From the NCBI GenBank assembly GCA_013042835.1, contig JABDPJ010000059.1, positions 1-42,303 on the forward strand: DNA of 42,303 nucleotides, written 5' to 3'. Below are positions 1,011 through 7,975 of the stretch, one piece after another. Below the pieces are notes generated by a model. It was not told where the DNA came from and made no database searches. It saw only the letters and a list, made by a program, of their open reading frames with translations. A program made the position numbers and the translations under genes. This DNA comes from Lysobacterales bacterium. GTDB lineage: Bacteria; Pseudomonadota; Gammaproteobacteria; Xanthomonadales; SZUA-36. Position 1 is the first letter of the stretch; each line of letters begins with the position of its first letter.

Positions 1011-2006
1011 ATGGAATCATCCGCCGCGAAAAGACCGACCAATCTGGACCCGCGCCTCGATCAGGCCCGGGCCTGGCTGACAAGCCTGGGGGTCAAGTTG
1101 CAATCAGACTTTCAGGACGTCGCTGGGGATGCAAGTTTTCGCCGCTATTTCAGAGCCGATATTGAAGGCAGGTCACACATCCTTATGGATGCCGCACCTC
1201 CCGGCGAGGACGTCAGGCCATTCATGGATGTGAACCGGCGCCTGCGCACAGCTCAGCTGCATGCACCGAAAATAGTCCACGCTGACCGCCGTAACGGTTT
1301 TCTCCTGCTGGAGGACCTCGGCGACGAGCTTTATCGTGATTTGCTGGACAAGAACAACGTTGACGAACTGTTTCCCGGGCTGTTTGACATCCTGGAGACA
1401 TTTGCACTGACGGTAAACACTGATGACCTGCCCCTCTTCAGTGTCAGGAAGCTACGCAGGGACATGGACCTTTTTCCGGAATGGTACCTCGGTCATCATC
1501 GCACGGCGATACCCCGGCATAGACTTGACGCGGTCTGGGACGGTTTTTGCGACCACATCATTGACTCGGCATTGACTCAGCCCCAGTGTTTCGTGCACCG
1601 GGATTTCCATTCCTGCAACTTACTCAGAACAGCTGCAAACGAAATCGGCATCATTGATTTTCAGGACGCCGTCATTGGACCGGTGAGCTATGACTTCGTG
1701 TCACTGATCTGGGACCGCTACATCCACTGGCCGCGGCCACAAATCGAAACCTGGATGGAGACGTTCAGACTGAAACTCGGTCTTGAAATGGAGCCGGAAC
1801 AATGGCGCCGTTACTGCGACCTGATGGGGTTGCAGAGAAACATCAAGATCGTCGGAATTTTTGCCAGGCTCTATTACCGCGACGGCAAGAGTGGCTACCT
1901 TGAAATGATCCCGCGATTTTATGAGTACGTGACCAGTACCTTGCGCCTGTACCCCGAGTTTGCGGAGGTTTTGAGCCATATGGAGCACCCTGAATGCGTG
2001 CCATGA
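1011..2006 (+). CDS. amgK: Anomeric sugar kinase AmgK (N-acetylmuramate/N-acetylglucosamine kinase)
   Basis: 331 residues of the aminoglycoside-phosphotransferase fold. The nucleotide-lid region ASFRRYFRA lies near residue 45, the catalytic loop reads FVHRDFHSCNLL (about 195-206), and the metal-binding motif GIIDFQDAVIGPVSYD follows shortly after. These match AmgK, which phosphorylates N-acetylmuramic acid (and GlcNAc) at the anomeric position. The product is passed to MurU in the recycling route that bypasses de novo UDP-MurNAc synthesis. The end of the gene overlaps murU by 13 bases, indicating translational coupling. The start at 1011 follows a C-run with no good Shine-Dalgarno, so the start is less certain than the identity. 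Confidence 0.9.
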   Translation: MESSAAKRPTNLDPRLDQARAWLTSLGVKLQSDFQDVAGDASFRRYFRADIEGRSHILMDAAPPGEDVRPFMDVNRRLRTAQLHAPKIVHADRRNGFLLLEDLGDELYRDLLDKNNVDELFPGLFDILETFALTVNTDDLPLFSVRKLRRDMDLFPEWYLGHHRTAIPRHRLDAVWDGFCDHIIDSALTQPQCFVHRDFHSCNLLRTAANEIGIIDFQDAVIGPVSYDFVSLIWDRYIHWPRPQIETWMETFRLKLGLEMEPEQWRRYCDLMGLQRNIKIVGIFARLYYRDGKSGYLEMIPRFYEYVTSTLRLYPEFAEVLSHMEHPECVP

Positions 2007-2671
2007 TTTTGGCTGCGGGCCGGGGCGAACGCCTGCGACCGCTGACAGACAAGACACCCAAGCCTCTATTGGAAGTTGGTGGAAAACCGCTGGTCGAACA
2101 CCACCTTGAAGGACTGGCCAACGCCGGTTTTCGTGAAGTTGTCATCAACCTCGACCACCTGGGTGAAATGATACGCGAGATACTGGGTGATGGCTCGAGG
2201 TGGGGCTTGAAGATCCGCTACTCTCCTGAACCCGCCGGCGCCCTCGGCACCGGCGGTGGTATCGCACAGGCGATGCCGCTGCTGGGAGATGCGCCATTCG
2301 CGATCATCAACGGTGACGTTTTCAGCCACTACCCCCTGGCACGCCTCAGAGCCATCAAGTGCGACCACGCACATCTCGTACTCGTGCCCAACCCGGCACA
2401 CAACCCTGACGGCGATTTTTCCCTTCGTGGCGGATACGTTTTTGCCGCAGGACAACCGCTGTATACATTCAGCGGAATCAGTGTTTATCACCCCCGCTTT
2501 TTCGCTAATGCCGCCACCGGCAGCTTCTCCATTGTGCCCATGATGAAGGCAGCGATGGCCGTGCAAAATGTAACGGGAGAACTGTTTCGTGGCGACTGGT
2601 ATGATATCGGCACGATAGAGCGACTCGAAGCCCTTCGCGATCATTTAAAACAGCAACTTAATCAAGTTTAA
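1994..2671 (+). CDS. murU: N-acetylmuramate-1-phosphate uridylyltransferase MurU
   Basis: 225 residues of the sugar-nucleotidyltransferase fold. It begins MRAMILAAGRGERLRPLTDK, the glycine-rich nucleotide loop, followed by the KPLLEVGGKPL lysine segment, ALGTGGGIAQA near residue 90, the metal-binding NGDVF, and a late GDWYDIGTIERL. The order and the size fit MurU, which converts MurNAc-1-phosphate and UTP to UDP-MurNAc. Directly downstream of and overlapping amgK, it completes the two-step recycling branch known from Pseudomonas, which lowers dependence on MurA and so gives intrinsic fosfomycin tolerance. The 1994 ATG is preferred over the ATG at 2003 because the M-x-A-M-I-L-A-A-G start is typical of the family. 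The gene lies next to suf by chance of location, not by function. Confidence 0.9.
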   Translation: MRAMILAAGRGERLRPLTDKTPKPLLEVGGKPLVEHHLEGLANAGFREVVINLDHLGEMIREILGDGSRWGLKIRYSPEPAGALGTGGGIAQAMPLLGDAPFAIINGDVFSHYPLARLRAIKCDHAHLVLVPNPAHNPDGDFSLRGGYVFAAGQPLYTFSGISVYHPRFFANAATGSFSIVPMMKAAMAVQNVTGELFRGDWYDIGTIERLEALRDHLKQQLNQV

Positions 2672-2832: not shown

Positions 2833-4368
2833 ATGAGAATCGGAGTACCGAGGGAGATATATACAGGCGAGAAGCGTGTAGCCACAACCCCAGAAGTGGC
2901 CACCCAGTTAATCAAGTTGGGTTTTGATGTAGCGGTTGAATCCAATGCAGGTGCCGCTGCAAATTATTCAGACAAAGCCTACGAAGCAGTTGGCTGTAGT
3001 GTTGTCGGCCTGGACGAGATCTGGAACGATTCAGATATCGTTTTGAAGGTCCGCGGCCCCGATGACGAGGAAGCGGCGCGTCTGAAATCTGGTCAGACAC
3101 TGATCAGTTTCCTTTACCCTGCACAAAACCCCGATTTGTTGCAAAAACTCACTGAGCGCGGTGTGACTGCCATGGCAATGGACAGCATTCCACGCATTTC
3201 ACGCGCCCAGAAAGTAGACGCCCTGAGTTCCATGGCAAATATCGCGGGCTACCGGGCCGTGGTGGAGGCTGCCCAGCATTTCGGCCGCTTTTTTACCGGC
3301 CAGATCACTGCTGCCGGAAAAGTATTACCCGCCAAGGTGCTGGTAATCGGCGCAGGTGTTGCCGGACTCGCTGCTATCGGTGCCGCCAAGAGCATGGGCG
3401 CCATCGTGCGCTCTTTCGATACCCGTCCTGAGGTCAAGGAACAGATCGAGAGCATGGATGCAGAGTTCCTGATGCTCGATTTTGAAGATGAAGACGGCTC
3501 TGGTGAAGGCGGCTATGCCAAGGTCATGAGCGAGGAGTTCATCGAGGCCGAGATGGCATTGTTCCTCGAGCAGGCGAAGGAAGTCGATATCATCATCACC
3601 ACTGCACTGATTCCGGGCAAGCCCGCTCCGCGCCTGATTACTGCGGAGATGGTAGAGGCCATGAAGGATGGCAGCGTCATCGTTGACCTGGCTGCCGAAC
3701 AGGGTGGTAACTGCGAACTCACCGAACCTGAGCAGGTCGTCACACACCACGGTGTGACCATCATTGGGTATACGGACATGCCCAGTCGGCTGGCTGCACA
3801 GTCCAGCCAATTGTATGCAACCAACCTGCGTCACCTGCTAACCGATTTAACACCTGAAAAAGACGGCCAGATTGTGGTCGACATGGAAGATGAAGTTTTT
3901 CGTGGCGCCACTGTATGCAAGGATGGTGAAACCACCTGGCCACCACCTGCCCCTAAACTATCAGCAGCACCGCCGAAGAAGGCGGCGCCGGCACCTGCGC
4001 CAGTAGTGAAAGAGGAAAAGAAAAGGTCAGTCGCAGGCCCCGTCATTGGCATGGTGGTTGCCGGTCTGGCACTGCTTGGACTTGGGTCTGTCGCACCAGC
4101 GTCATTTATGAACCACTTCACCGTATTCGTACTGGCATGTTTTGTCGGCTACATGGTGATCTGGAACGTAACTGCTGCACTGCATACACCGCTTATGAGT
4201 GTTACCAATGCTATTTCCAGCATCATCATCATCGGTGCCCTACTGCAGATCAGTTCTGATGTTCCGCTAATCAAGTGGGTTGCGATCGGAACCGTTTTGA
4301 TTACTGCGGTCAATATCTTTGGCGGCTTTGCTGTTACGCGCCGTATGCTTGAAATGTTCAGGAAGTGA
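2833..4368 (+). CDS. pntA: Proton-translocating NAD(P) transhydrogenase, alpha subunit PntA
   Basis: 511 residues, the size of the fused E. coli-type alpha subunit. Domain I (about 1-380) binds NAD(H). It has the RQD loop [14 protein letters not shown], with R121, Q126, D129 and S132 all present, the Rossmann turn [15 protein letters not shown], the mobile-loop [11 protein letters not shown] and the [13 protein letters not shown] segment. An Ala/Pro/Lys linker (about 375-400) leads to four hydrophobic helices that form part of the proton channel (domain II). With PntB it couples the proton gradient to hydride transfer from NADH to NADP+ at the inner membrane. GGAG lies 7 bases before the ATG. 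pntB follows after 7 bases. All catalytic loop residues are canonical, in contrast to the paralogue at 6020. Confidence 0.97.
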
Positions 4369-4375
4369 GGTCGTC

Positions 4376-5782
4376 ATGTTTGAAGTAAACGAAGGAATTA
4401 TCCAGGTCTCGTACATCATCGCGACCATTCTATTCATCCTCGCCCTCGGTGGCCTTTCCAACCAGGAAACTGCCCGGCGTGGTAACTGGTACGGCATTAT
4501 CGGTATGGCGATTGCCCTGATTGCTACGTTTGTTGGTGATGTCACCCAGCATTACGAGTACCTGATCGTCGCACTGCTCGTTGGCGGCACGGTGGGCATC
4601 ATCGCTGCCAGACGCGTGCAGATGACCCAGATGCCGGAACTCGTCGCAATCCTGCACAGCCTGGTGGGCCTTGCAGCCGTGGCCGTTGGCTTTGCAAATT
4701 TCATGGATCCGGCAAGACTGTCCCATTATTTGGGTGTCGAATTGACCATTCACGATATTGAGACCTACCTCGGTATCCTGATAGGTGCGGTGACGTTTTC
4801 CGGCTCTGTAATTGCGTTTGGAAAGTTATCAGGCCGGATCGGTGGCAAACCGCTGACTTTGCCGGGAAGACACTGGTTAAACCTGTTGCTGCTGATCGCA
4901 TCTTTCTGGTTTGGCTACGAATTTGTCGTCCAGTCAGCGGCCGGTGGCGGTATGCAACCCCTCATCATCATGACGGTTATCGCCCTGCTTTTCGGTATCC
5001 ACATGGTCATGGCGATCGGTGGTGCTGATATGCCCGTGGTCGTGTCCATGCTCAACAGTTATTCCGGTTGGGCCGCTGCCGCAACCGGTTTCATGCTGGG
5101 CAATGACCTGTTAATCGTTACCGGCGCCCTTGTCGGTTCCAGTGGTGCGATTCTGAGTTACATCATGTGCCGTGCAATGAACCGCAAGTTCCTTTCTGTG
5201 ATAGCCGGTGGCTTTGGAACCAGTGAAGGAACGCAGGTGGCAGGAGCAGAGGACCAGGGTGAAGTCGCACCCATCGAGGCCGAAGAAACGGCAGACCTGC
5301 TTACCAATGCCAAAGAAGTGATGATCATCCCGGGTTATGGTATGGCGGTAGCACAAGCACAGCACATCGTCTACGAAATCACCAAGTCGCTGCGTGCCCA
5401 GGGTGTCAATGTCCGCTTTGGCATCCACCCGGTTGCCGGGCGCATGCCGGGCCACATGAACGTATTGTTGGCCGAAGCCAAGGTACCTTATGACATCGTC
5501 TACGAGATGGATGAAATCAACGACGATTTCCCGAACATCGATGTGTCCATCATCATCGGCGCCAACGATATCGTTAACCCCTCGGCGCTGACTGATCCGG
5601 ATGGCCCGATCGGCGGCATGCCGGTACTGGAGTGCTGGAAAGGCAAGGTTTCCATTGTTCTCAAGCGCAGTATGGCAACGGGTTATGCCGGCGTGCAGAA
5701 TCCCTTGTTCTTCCTCGACAACACCCGCATGCTGTTCGGTGATGCCGGTGACACGCTGGACAAGGTATTTAAAGAGCTCTAA
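4376..5782 (+). CDS. pntB: Proton-translocating NAD(P) transhydrogenase, beta subunit PntB
   Basis: 468 residues from the ATG at 4376, preceded by AGGAAGTGAGG. An earlier in-frame start at 4319 would lie inside pntA and is unlikely. Roughly residues 1-270 form multiple transmembrane helices (domain II). Domain III, the NADP(H)-binding part, shows [11 protein letters not shown], the Rossmann-like [16 protein letters not shown], and [16 protein letters not shown], whose Lys-Arg pair recognises the 2'-phosphate of NADP. Length and order match E. coli PntB. It forms the membrane enzyme with PntA from the gene directly upstream. A strong intrinsic terminator follows 28 bases after the stop, so pntAB is a closed two-gene operon. 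Confidence 0.97.
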
Positions 5783-5809
5783 GCAATTTGCCTGTTAACA
5801 GGTGTTAAG

Positions 5810-5839
5810 CCCCCAAAGCGCAAGCGATGGGGGTTTTTT
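5810..5839 (+). terminator. Rho-independent terminator after pntB
   Basis: CCCCCA (5810-5815) pairs with TGGGGG (5828-5833) and is followed at once by six T (5834-5839). Just before it lies the perfect palindrome CCTGTTAACAGG (5791-5802). This should end the pntAB transcript and separate it from the second transhydrogenase unit. Confidence 0.85.
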
Positions 5840-5904: not shown

Positions 5905-6019
5905 CAATGCGCGCAGGACATGACCCCGTAAACAATAATGCGAAAGATTCACTTTTGGGTAATAATGTTAGTCATCAGCCTCATTGGAAGAAGCTGATTT
6001 CTGACAGGGAGGAGAGTTC

Positions 6020-7147
6020 ATGTCGCTATCTGTTGCGGTGCTCAGGGAACAGGCCGATGGGGAACGTCGCGTCGCACTGGACCCGGCCAGCGCCAACCAG
6101 CTTGCCCGGAGTGGATTCCAGGTGCTGGTTGAAAAAAGCGCTGGTGAAGCGGCAGGATTCGCCGATGAACAATACGCCGATTGCGTACTTCTGGATGATC
6201 CTGAACTCATAGTCACCATGGCTGACATATGGCTGTGGGTGCAAATGCCGGCGACAGAACAGCTGGCAAACCTGCCTGATGGCCGGCTCGGTATCGGCCT
6301 TGTTTATCCGCACCGGAGCCCGGCAATCACCGCTACACTCAATCAACATCACCATACCTGCCTGGCGATGGAACTCGTACCGTGTAATAACCGCACCCGG
6401 TCCATGGATGTACTCTCCTCGCAGGCTACAATTGCCGGCTACAGTGCAGTACTGAGAGCGGCCCAGCTGGCGCCGCGCGTATTTCCCATGTTGACCACCC
6501 CCGCCGGCACACTGAACCCGGCTCGAGTAGTCGTTATTGGCGCCGGTGTAGCGGGTTTACAGGCGATCGCGACGGCGCGACGGCTGGGCGCCCGTGTCGA
6601 AGTTTATGAACCGGGACCCATAGCCCGTGAAACAGTGGAATCCCTCGGGGCATTATTAATCAGCGCGGATACTGCAAAGGTTGACGGCACCGGATTGGAT
6701 GAAAAGCCGGCCCGGGATGATCAGCACCAGGTGTCCGAAAAGTTGACGGAATGCCTGGCCGGGGCAGATGTCGTCATATCAACCGTTGCACTGCCCGGGA
6801 TTTCGGCACCAAAGCTCATCAGCAAAGCCATGCTCGATGGCATGCAAGCCGGCTCCGTCATCGTCGACCTGGCTGCCGAATCGGGCGGTAATTGCGAGCT
6901 GACCGTGCCGGGTGAAACAATGACACACAATGGGGTTGTTGTGGATGGGCCGCTCAACCTTGCCAGTGAAGCCGCCAATCACGCGAGTGTTATGTATGCG
7001 CGGAGCCTGCTGGATGTGCTTGACCTCGTGGTCGATGGTGAGAGCATCGTCGTCAATCGCGACAGCGAGGTGATCGATGGGATCCTGTTGACACATGACG
7101 GAAAACTGGTTCAAAGAGACGCCATTGAGCCACCGGCAAACGCTTGA
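6020..7147 (+). CDS. PntA domain-I paralogue, soluble (NAD-domain protein of a reduced transhydrogenase)
   Basis: 375 residues, the size of the soluble PntAA subunit of Rhodospirillum-type enzymes, with no hydrophobic C-terminal helices. Similarity to PntA domain I is clear: ERRVALDP near the start, the Rossmann turn [18 protein letters not shown] (173-190) and [16 protein letters not shown] (280-295). Key positions differ. The RQD loop reads PCNNRTRSMDVLSS, so by alignment the Arg of the family is C122 and the essential Gln is R127. D130 and S133 are kept. The GYA tyrosine of the mobile loop is gone. GGGAGGAG precedes the ATG. The gene is followed by a membrane-tethered domain III and no channel genes. 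It may bind NAD(H) with altered chemistry, or act as a sensor. Activity as a standard transhydrogenase is doubtful. Confidence 0.85.
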   Translation: MSLSVAVLREQADGERRVALDPASANQLARSGFQVLVEKSAGEAAGFADEQYADCVLLDDPELIVTMADIWLWVQMPATEQLANLPDGRLGIGLVYPHRSPAITATLNQHHHTCLAMELVPCNNRTRSMDVLSSQATIAGYSAVLRAAQLAPRVFPMLTTPAGTLNPARVVVIGAGVAGLQAIATARRLGARVEVYEPGPIARETVESLGALLISADTAKVDGTGLDEKPARDDQHQVSEKLTECLAGADVVISTVALPGISAPKLISKAMLDGMQAGSVIVDLAAESGGNCELTVPGETMTHNGVVVDGPLNLASEAANHASVMYARSLLDVLDLVVDGESIVVNRDSEVIDGILLTHDGKLVQRDAIEPPANA

Positions 7148-7216
7148 ACCGGGGGCTGAAATGAACCTGCTGTCAAGTTCCTGCGTTAGCGTTCTTCCGG
7201 GAGGGAAATAGCCGTC

Positions 7217-7975
7217 ATGGAATTGTTCCCCGTCCTGTTGATCGTGGTGTCCTCTCTGGTCATCGCTTTACTGATTTTCGTCGCGGTTAAACTGACACTT
7301 GCACACCTGTCAGAGCTTCGGGCAATCGGCAAGGACAGCGACACAGAGGCCGAGGCACCTGCACCTGCACCTGCTCCTGCTCCTGCTCCTGCTCCTGAAC
7401 CTGAACCTGCACCTGCCCCGCATCCCGAAACCATTGTGGAAAAATCGGATCTGGCCAATACGCTGCTGGCGGCAGAGAATATTATCGTGGTTCCGGGTTA
7501 TGGCGTGGCAGTTTCGCAAGCCCATTTCCAACTTGGAGCCTTGGCAAGGTCACTTGCAGACAAGGGGATCGAGGTCAGTTTTGCGATTCATCCCGCCGCC
7601 GGACGCATGCCCGGGCACATGAATATCCTGCTTGATGAAGCGGAGGTACCACATGCAGGGATATTTGACCTTGAAAGCATCAACCACCGCTTTCCCGCGT
7701 GTGACCTGGCGCTCATCGTTGGCGCCAATGACGTGGTTAATCCGGCGGCCCGCGAAGATACGGACAGCCCAAATTACGGCATGCCCGTCCTCGACGCTGA
7801 CACAGCCCGGCGAGTGTTTGTCTTGAAACGTGGCGACGGAAACGGTTATTCCGAAACCGACAACCCGCTATTTTCACGGGATAACGTCCGTATGGTTTAT
7901 GGCGATGCCAGGGATACCCTGCAGAACCTTCTCAATGAAGTGCAGACAGACCAGGATTTGCCCGCCAGGAACTGA
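7217..7975 (+). CDS. Single-helix-anchored PntB domain III (NADP-domain protein of a reduced transhydrogenase)
   Basis: 252 residues in three parts. A single hydrophobic helix (about 5-29, MELFPVLLIVV at the start) acts as an uncleaved anchor. An acidic and Ala/Pro-repeat linker follows (about 40-70). A complete transhydrogenase domain III (about 75-240) has [48 protein letters not shown] and VYGDA. The Lys-Arg pair for the NADP 2'-phosphate is kept. The channel helices that precede domain III in PntB are absent, and no separate gene encodes them nearby. GGGAGGG lies upstream of the ATG. Only 69 bases separate it from the domain-I gene, so the two probably form a complex. The natural arrangement mimics the isolated dI-dIII mixtures used to study uncoupled transhydrogenation. 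Confidence 0.88.
   Translation: MELFPVLLIVVSSLVIALLIFVAVKLTLAHLSELRAIGKDSDTEAEAPAPAPAPAPAPAPEPEPAPAPHPETIVEKSDLANTLLAAENIIVVPGYGVAVSQAHFQLGALARSLADKGIEVSFAIHPAAGRMPGHMNILLDEAEVPHAGIFDLESINHRFPACDLALIVGANDVVNPAAREDTDSPNYGMPVLDADTARRVFVLKRGDGNGYSETDNPLFSRDNVRMVYGDARDTLQNLLNEVQTDQDLPARN
7355..7414 (+). repeat. In-frame hexanucleotide tandem repeat encoding the Ala-Pro linker
   Basis: Ten consecutive 6-base units: GCACCT three times, GCTCCT four times, GAACCT twice and GCACCT once. They encode alternating Ala-Pro and Glu-Pro. Slippage would change linker length by two residues per unit without breaking frame. Long Ala-Pro tracts form stiff extended spacers, consistent with holding domain III away from the membrane. 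Confidence 0.9.

Follow-up and report, generated by a model that had tools for sequence, protein, structure and literature searches.

Two adjacent genes in the window, by which we mean the whole stretch of 42,303 bases analysed here, appear to encode proteins derived from a transhydrogenase: a free-standing domain I (dI) protein that has lost conserved catalytic residues, and a domain III (dIII) protein predicted to be anchored by a single helix. We favour describing them as a transhydrogenase-derived pseudoenzyme pair, a natural exception that is represented by one draft assembly. Sequence and gene order make it very likely that the pair is the remnant of a native three-gene operon displaced in its own slot by an E. 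coli-type pntAB. The initial annotation had proposed a naturally encoded, membrane-tethered dI and dIII pair without domain II as a new architecture; such a pair is present, and a search of one literature library turned up no earlier report of a natural one.

Organization of the Locus

The genes and sequence features of the pair and of its upstream neighbour all lie on the forward strand. The dI-like gene (6020–7147) encodes 375 residues of the PntAA type, and the gene for the membrane-anchored dIII protein (7217–7975) encodes 252; the 69 bases from 7148 to 7216 separate them. The frames, with their sizes, positions and spacing, agree exactly with those first noted. Pfam finds AlaDh_PNT_N (2.9e-29) and AlaDh_PNT_C (6e-54), a complete dI, in the first protein, and in the second aligns residues 73–240 with positions 288–455 of PNTB, its dIII part only (6.1e-72). 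Both proteins score below the NCBIfam equivalog cut-offs, which belong to full-length models (295.2 against 383 for dI, 181.5 against 689 for dIII). Neither frame carries a disabling stop or frameshift of the kind that would mark a pseudogene.

A Shine–Dalgarno sequence, AGGGAGGAG, precedes the dI gene (6006–6014), its CAGGGAG being common to genomes G005 and G006 of the same genus, and a Shine–Dalgarno-like GGGAGGG precedes the dIII gene (7199–7205). Upstream of dI, the promoter-like block TTTTGGGTAATAAT (5953–5966) could be aligned by eye with TTTTGGGTGATAAT in G006 and TTTTAAGGGATAAT in G005, both of which stand 5' of a three-gene operon. A consensus promoter scan of the window gave no match, including the region 5' of dI.

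The full-length pntAB reported immediately upstream was confirmed at 2833–4368 and 4376–5782. Its pntA, the presumed displacing newcomer, is of the E. coli type (dI and four transmembrane helices, with PNTB_4TM present; NF006942, 842 bits against a cut-off of 383) and is 86–88% identical to the pntA genes that occupy this slot in G003 and G007. The E. coli-type pntB has full domain II and dIII (NF006974, 715.8 bits, cut-off 689). A terminator-like hairpin and T run follow it (5807–5836; −20.4 kcal/mol, z −3.0, 3 of 200 shuffles folding as well); a consensus terminator scan, which allows loops of at most 8, gave no match to this hairpin. Elsewhere in the family, G033 holds two differing E. coli-type pntA-pntB pairs (G033:C109 and G033:C128; L133 and L132), whose pntA copies are 86% and 82% identical to that of the window.

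The source assembly (3.43 Mb in 329 contigs, 89% complete, contamination estimate 1.36%) contains two PNTB matches, the neighbouring pntB and the dIII of the pair, and one PNTB_4TM match, the neighbouring pntA. The claim that the pair has no domain II gene is upheld to this extent: the pair has one hydrophobic helix only, and PNTB and PNTB_4TM profile searches of an assembly that leaves about 11% of the genome unseen found no spare domain II and no unassigned match. Fragmentation into so many contigs, together with the contamination estimate, could suggest that the pair is a chimera or a contaminant. We regard such an artefact as extremely improbable: the pair lies between flanking genes whose order is conserved in relatives, its GC contents are 58.4% and 55.9% against 53.2–57.8% in neighbouring genes, and its best relatives belong to the same genus. 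A chance product is excluded by sequence, because the pair is 59–68% identical to those relatives.

Probable Origin from a Displaced Three-Gene Operon

The free-standing PntAA proteins of G006 and G005 share 68% and 65% identity with the dI protein, and the neighbouring PntA shares 40%. The dIII protein is 60% and 59% identical to PntB of G006 and G005, and 46% identical to the neighbouring PntB. Duplication of the upstream pntAB was considered as the source of the pair and rejected on these figures, 40% and 46% standing against 59–68% for the three-gene relatives. The operon pntAA-pntAB-pntB was read in nine genomes of the family (G005, G006, G010, G011, G018, G019, G021, G024 and G027), the dI of G011 being cut by a contig end.

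In the window, the slot is flanked by rrf2, kinase and NTP transferase genes on one side and by lipoprotein, AMP nucleosidase and Hda genes on the other. The same flanks enclose the three-gene operon in G005, G006, G010 and G024; most of them are shared around the operon of G019, where rrf2 and AMP nucleosidase are absent from the stretch read. G003 shares both flanks, and its slot contains E. coli-type pntA-pntB alone, a search at E 1e-8 picking up no remnant of the native operon. E. coli-type pntA-pntB is also present in G004 and G007, with one shared flank visible in each. In the window the E. coli-type pntAB comes first, then the terminator-like hairpin, and then the stripped native genes. 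Within the genus the slot is thus seen with the old operon, with the new pntAB, or with both, the old one stripped. Kinase and NTP-transferase genes stand 5' of the transhydrogenase slot in G003, G005, G006, G007, G010, G019 and G024; those of the window (1011–2671) resemble an AmgK/MurU cell-wall recycling pair.

Because the slot of G003 holds the E. coli-type pntAB only and that of the window holds both, the simplest reading is that this looks like displacement in place, caught midway, with the old genes not yet removed. The E. coli-type pntAB would have overtaken the native pntAA-pntAB-pntB in the native chromosomal slot. The native operon would then have lost pntAB and the membrane helices of PntB, leaving dI and a dIII anchored by one helix, behind what appear to be a promoter block and a ribosome site of their own. 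The initial annotation had held the pair to be more than a mere deletion product; gene order and sequence instead indicate what remains of the three-gene operon once pntAB and the helices of PntB had gone. In a tree of dIII sequences the window groups weakly with G024 and not with G005 and G006, which counts against the favoured explanation. A species tree of the genus from neighbouring genes has supports of 0.2–0.99 and conflicting branches.

Loss of Catalytic Residues in the dI Protein

The AlphaFold2 single-chain model of dI has a mean pLDDT of 88, with residues 217–230 below 50, and its best solved Foldseek matches are transhydrogenase dI chains. Five substitutions, R122C, Q127R, D197E, R199G and Y226L, affect positions at which the original residue is kept in 30 of 30 distant relatives. 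The first two fall in the remains of the RQD loop (residues 122–133; 6383–6418), which reads RISRAQSMDVLS in G005 and G006 and CNNRTRSMDVLS in the window; D130 and S133 are kept. Residues 215–238 (6662–6733), the stretch of the mobile loop, have been replaced (relatives have DTG...GGYARELTDEE). Position 226 is that of the mobile-loop Tyr, and positions 197 and 199 are those of an Asp and an Arg in the NAD site.

The Arg and Gln of the RQD loop are kept in 47 of the 49 distinct loop strings found across all loci examined, a count for which the search pattern itself requires Asp and Ser. The exceptions are the window dI and L114, a Bifidobacteriaceae dI in which MISAAQNMD replaces R...Q..D, with the Arg lost and the Gln and Asp kept. 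In PMC5026163, the four loop residues Arg, Gln, Asp and Ser are given as invariant in the catalytic site; in the window dI the Arg is Cys and the Gln is Arg. Solved R. rubrum mutants, R127A, Q132N, D135N and S138A, fall on the same four positions, a correspondence of residues (R127, Q132, D135 and S138) that is drawn from PDB titles and identical spacing. A partial dI match occurs in the two-contig genome G055 (G055:C1:368822–369676; L168), where a frame beside a full PntB matches residues 113–365 only, its N-terminal third being missing or shifted.

Having lost the Arg and Gln of the RQD loop, the mobile loop and a portion of the NAD site, the window dI is unlikely to transfer hydride efficiently, and we consider it highly probable that this activity is lost or crippled. 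Sequence and model together suggest that dI is a pseudoenzyme, with its fold kept and conserved catalytic residues gone.

The uncoupled redox equaliser first suggested for the pair would be an active, membrane-tethered dI–dIII transhydrogenase that brings NAD(H) and NADP(H) into equilibrium. Normal dI and dIII do form a complex unaided, as in the solved dI2–dIII structures; the catalytic site still contains D130 and S133, and dIII its NADP motifs. Such an enzyme is nevertheless quite improbable here, because the Arg and Gln of the RQD loop, Asp and Arg residues at the NAD site and the Tyr of the mobile loop are replaced. The lost Arg and Gln are among the catalytic-site residues listed as invariant in PMC5026163. 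Moreover, an uncoupled exchanger would be expected to dissipate what the upstream pump builds.

The Anchored dIII Protein

The dIII protein begins with a single hydrophobic anchor helix (residues 5–28; 7229–7300), modelled as a helix from residue 3 to 39, and continues through an Ala-Pro/Glu-Pro linker (residues 47–70; 7355–7426) to a dIII Rossmann domain (residues 74–241; 7436–7939). In another frame the Ala-Pro linker gives rise to a leucine-rich frame of 107 residues (7299–7622), a by-product of the repeat. The motifs GYGxAVxQA, RMPGHMN, GANDVVNP and KRG are retained. Changes are seen at Q103 and G213, kept in 34 of 34 distant relatives, at Y146 (33 of 34) and at I186 (32 of 34). The AlphaFold2 model has a mean pLDDT of 90, and its best solved Foldseek matches are transhydrogenase dIII chains. 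With the main motifs kept, dIII may be able to bind NADP(H). The helix probably tethers it to the membrane on the cytoplasmic face, an orientation assigned because positive residues follow the helix on its C-terminal side.

The anchor helix may be foreign in source. It gives no signal of descent from a PntB helix (P 0.09–0.79), and no donor was found elsewhere in the assembly, where the best other match has an E value of 0.15. It is possible, though doubtful, that the dIII gene was born by one in-frame deletion of about 1.1 kb, by which the dIII of PntB became joined to the beginning of pntAB with its first helix. The opening MELF...L.I of dIII resembles MEGF...L.I of pntAB, and the pntAB of G006 has a similar CCGGGAG...ATGGAA start. 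A fixed-register score gives P 0.03–0.07 with a profile built from only 10 of 24 distinct pntAB starts (ME.F or ME.W), a choice made towards similarity. This significance disappears when the second residue is disregarded (P 0.17–0.33), free local alignment of the helix to pntAB gives P 0.46, and the PntB helices give no match either.

Selection or Decay

The main rival to a maintained pair is that it is a functionless relic, a displaced operon in the course of erosion whose frames have stayed open by chance or for want of time. We give this a substantial probability, somewhat short of even. It would suit a pair found in one genome and the slot of G003, in which nothing of the native operon is left at the E value given above. 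The window branch also shows strongly accelerated amino-acid change, 0.41 (dI) and 0.62 (dIII) against 0.08–0.09 and 0.01–0.05 in G005 and G006. Invariant sites have been lost in both proteins, and across the whole of dI they are no better protected than variable ones (41 of 158 changed against 48 of 156, P 0.38). As a control, sites changed in one relative and kept in the others number 0–18 for dI and 0–11 for dIII. These counts are based on nine relatives for dI, the incomplete G011 being dropped, and on twelve for dIII, with two fragments dropped.

Against a relic stand the open frames themselves. Neutral decay, simulated with substitutions only to the observed extra divergence, puts about five stops into the frames of the pair. 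Both frames stayed open in 0.6% of runs started from G005 and 0.2% of those started from G006 (P 0.006 and 0.002; 1000 runs for each starting sequence). The changes in dI are regionally uneven: 32 of 54 invariant sites are changed in the RQD loop and residues 195–266 and 9 of 104 elsewhere (Fisher 1.6e-11, the regions having been picked after the changes were seen). In dIII, 30 of 103 invariant sites are changed, Q103, Y146, I186 and G213 among them; this is a lower proportion than the 31 of 57 for variable sites with the same residue in G005 and G006 (P 0.002). The ribosome sites and the predicted folds are kept as well.

Codon models reject omega = 1 on the window branch, with a loss in lnL of 22.5 for dI (seven sequences) and 14.4 for dIII (nine sequences). 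The branch omega is 0.07 for dI and 0.06 for dIII, not significantly different from background (lnL gains of 0.6 and 1.4). Long constraint followed by recent decay is compatible with this test because synonymous sites are saturated. Codon usage of the pair is uninformative. The initial annotation had counted absence from related strains, together with decay into pseudogenes, as grounds for dismissing a working system; the searched relatives indeed lack the pair, but its frames show no such decay by stops or frameshifts. On balance we lean towards the pair still being under selection for something.

Distribution

The initial annotation had looked to conserved co-occurrence of adjacent dI and helix-linker-dIII genes for support. 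No such conservation is seen: the pair occurs in 1 of 10 genomes of the genus and 1 of 39 of the family, that is in the single draft assembly, two of the 39 family genomes giving no match at all. Domain II-free dIII genes were sought by looking for short open frames in the match listings of 101 genomes of relatives, 39 of the family, 369 of the class and 398 of the order, sets that overlap; 52 GTDB loci were also searched, a dIII frame being recognized in 49.

Among the loci examined, only two dIII frames shorter than 350 residues end inside their stretch, those of the window and of G008, a genome of the same genus. The other short dIII frames checked, in G012, G035, G036, G147, G342, G463, L098 and L109, run off contig ends, as does that of G002:C111, judged there by position; the matches also include a 110-residue frame in G084. 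In G008 (G008:C145, L134; reverse strand, 4314–4319) a single in-frame TGA interrupts an E. coli-type pntB in the linker between domain II and dIII, and the dIII after it forms a separate frame of 160 codons that opens directly with TTG. The TGA may be an error in a 77% complete draft or a real split. This case differs from the pair because an intact domain II lies directly beside the dIII frame.

No dIII match was found in viral contigs. Plasmid records, for example NZ_LR890294.1, matched dIII in 294 cases, none over more than 80% of the query; they include Rhizobium (67) and Klebsiella (14), and those among the listed records that carry an annotation are labelled as a transhydrogenase beta subunit.

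Possible Roles

The reading that we favour, at about even odds, is a maintained pseudo-transhydrogenase derived from the displaced operon and perhaps still able to bind NADP(H). If the pair has a working role at all, the likeliest is that of a complex that may bind NADP(H) without catalysis, either as its sensor or buffer or as a modulator of the resident PntAB by way of dI/dIII contacts. Such a sensing, buffering or modulating role is put forward tentatively, at less than an even chance. A more specific proposal, which we think unlikely, is that a recycled pump serves as a tethered NADP(H) receptor, in which a dead dI dimer would scaffold dIII on its flexible Ala-Pro stalk, and the complex would signal or buffer the state of NADP(H) by docking on PntAB, as an inhibitor or modulator, or on some other partner.

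Whatever the role of the pair, one slot in one genus appears to capture a transhydrogenase displacement in place, with either system present or with both. A working leftover would amount to a dI/dIII module produced by natural evolution and would offer a way to ask what dIII does when no channel is attached. If it is a relic, loss of the channel was accompanied by loss of the catalytic loops.

Comparison with Known Transhydrogenases

Set beside a functional proton-translocating transhydrogenase, the pair has the dI and dIII domains, by Pfam and by fold, and lacks the domain II channel. E. coli-type PntAB belongs to the same reaction family and is 40% (dI) and 46% (dIII) identical to the pair, but it has a full proton channel and an intact RQD loop and represents a separate lineage, not the parent. 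Alanine dehydrogenase has the AlaDh_PNT fold in common with dI, which scores 105.6 bits against its cut-off of 391.85.

The three-subunit PntAA/PntAB/PntB enzymes of the R. rubrum and T. thermophilus type share with the pair a free-standing dI of about 375 residues, a dIII that ends the last gene, the gene order, the chromosomal slot and, for members of the same genus, 59–68% identity. The pair differs from them in the absence of pntAB and of the PntB helices, in a dIII carried on one helix and an Ala-Pro linker, and in a dI without the catalytic Arg and Gln and the mobile loop. The recombinant dI2–dIII1 complexes (for example PDB 1hzz, 1u2d, 2oor and 4j16) comprise the same two soluble domains with domain II absent, and the single-chain models of the pair match them in Foldseek searches. 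Those complexes are laboratory fragments that, mutants apart, have the active-site Arg and Gln, whereas the pair is natural, tethered and without both.
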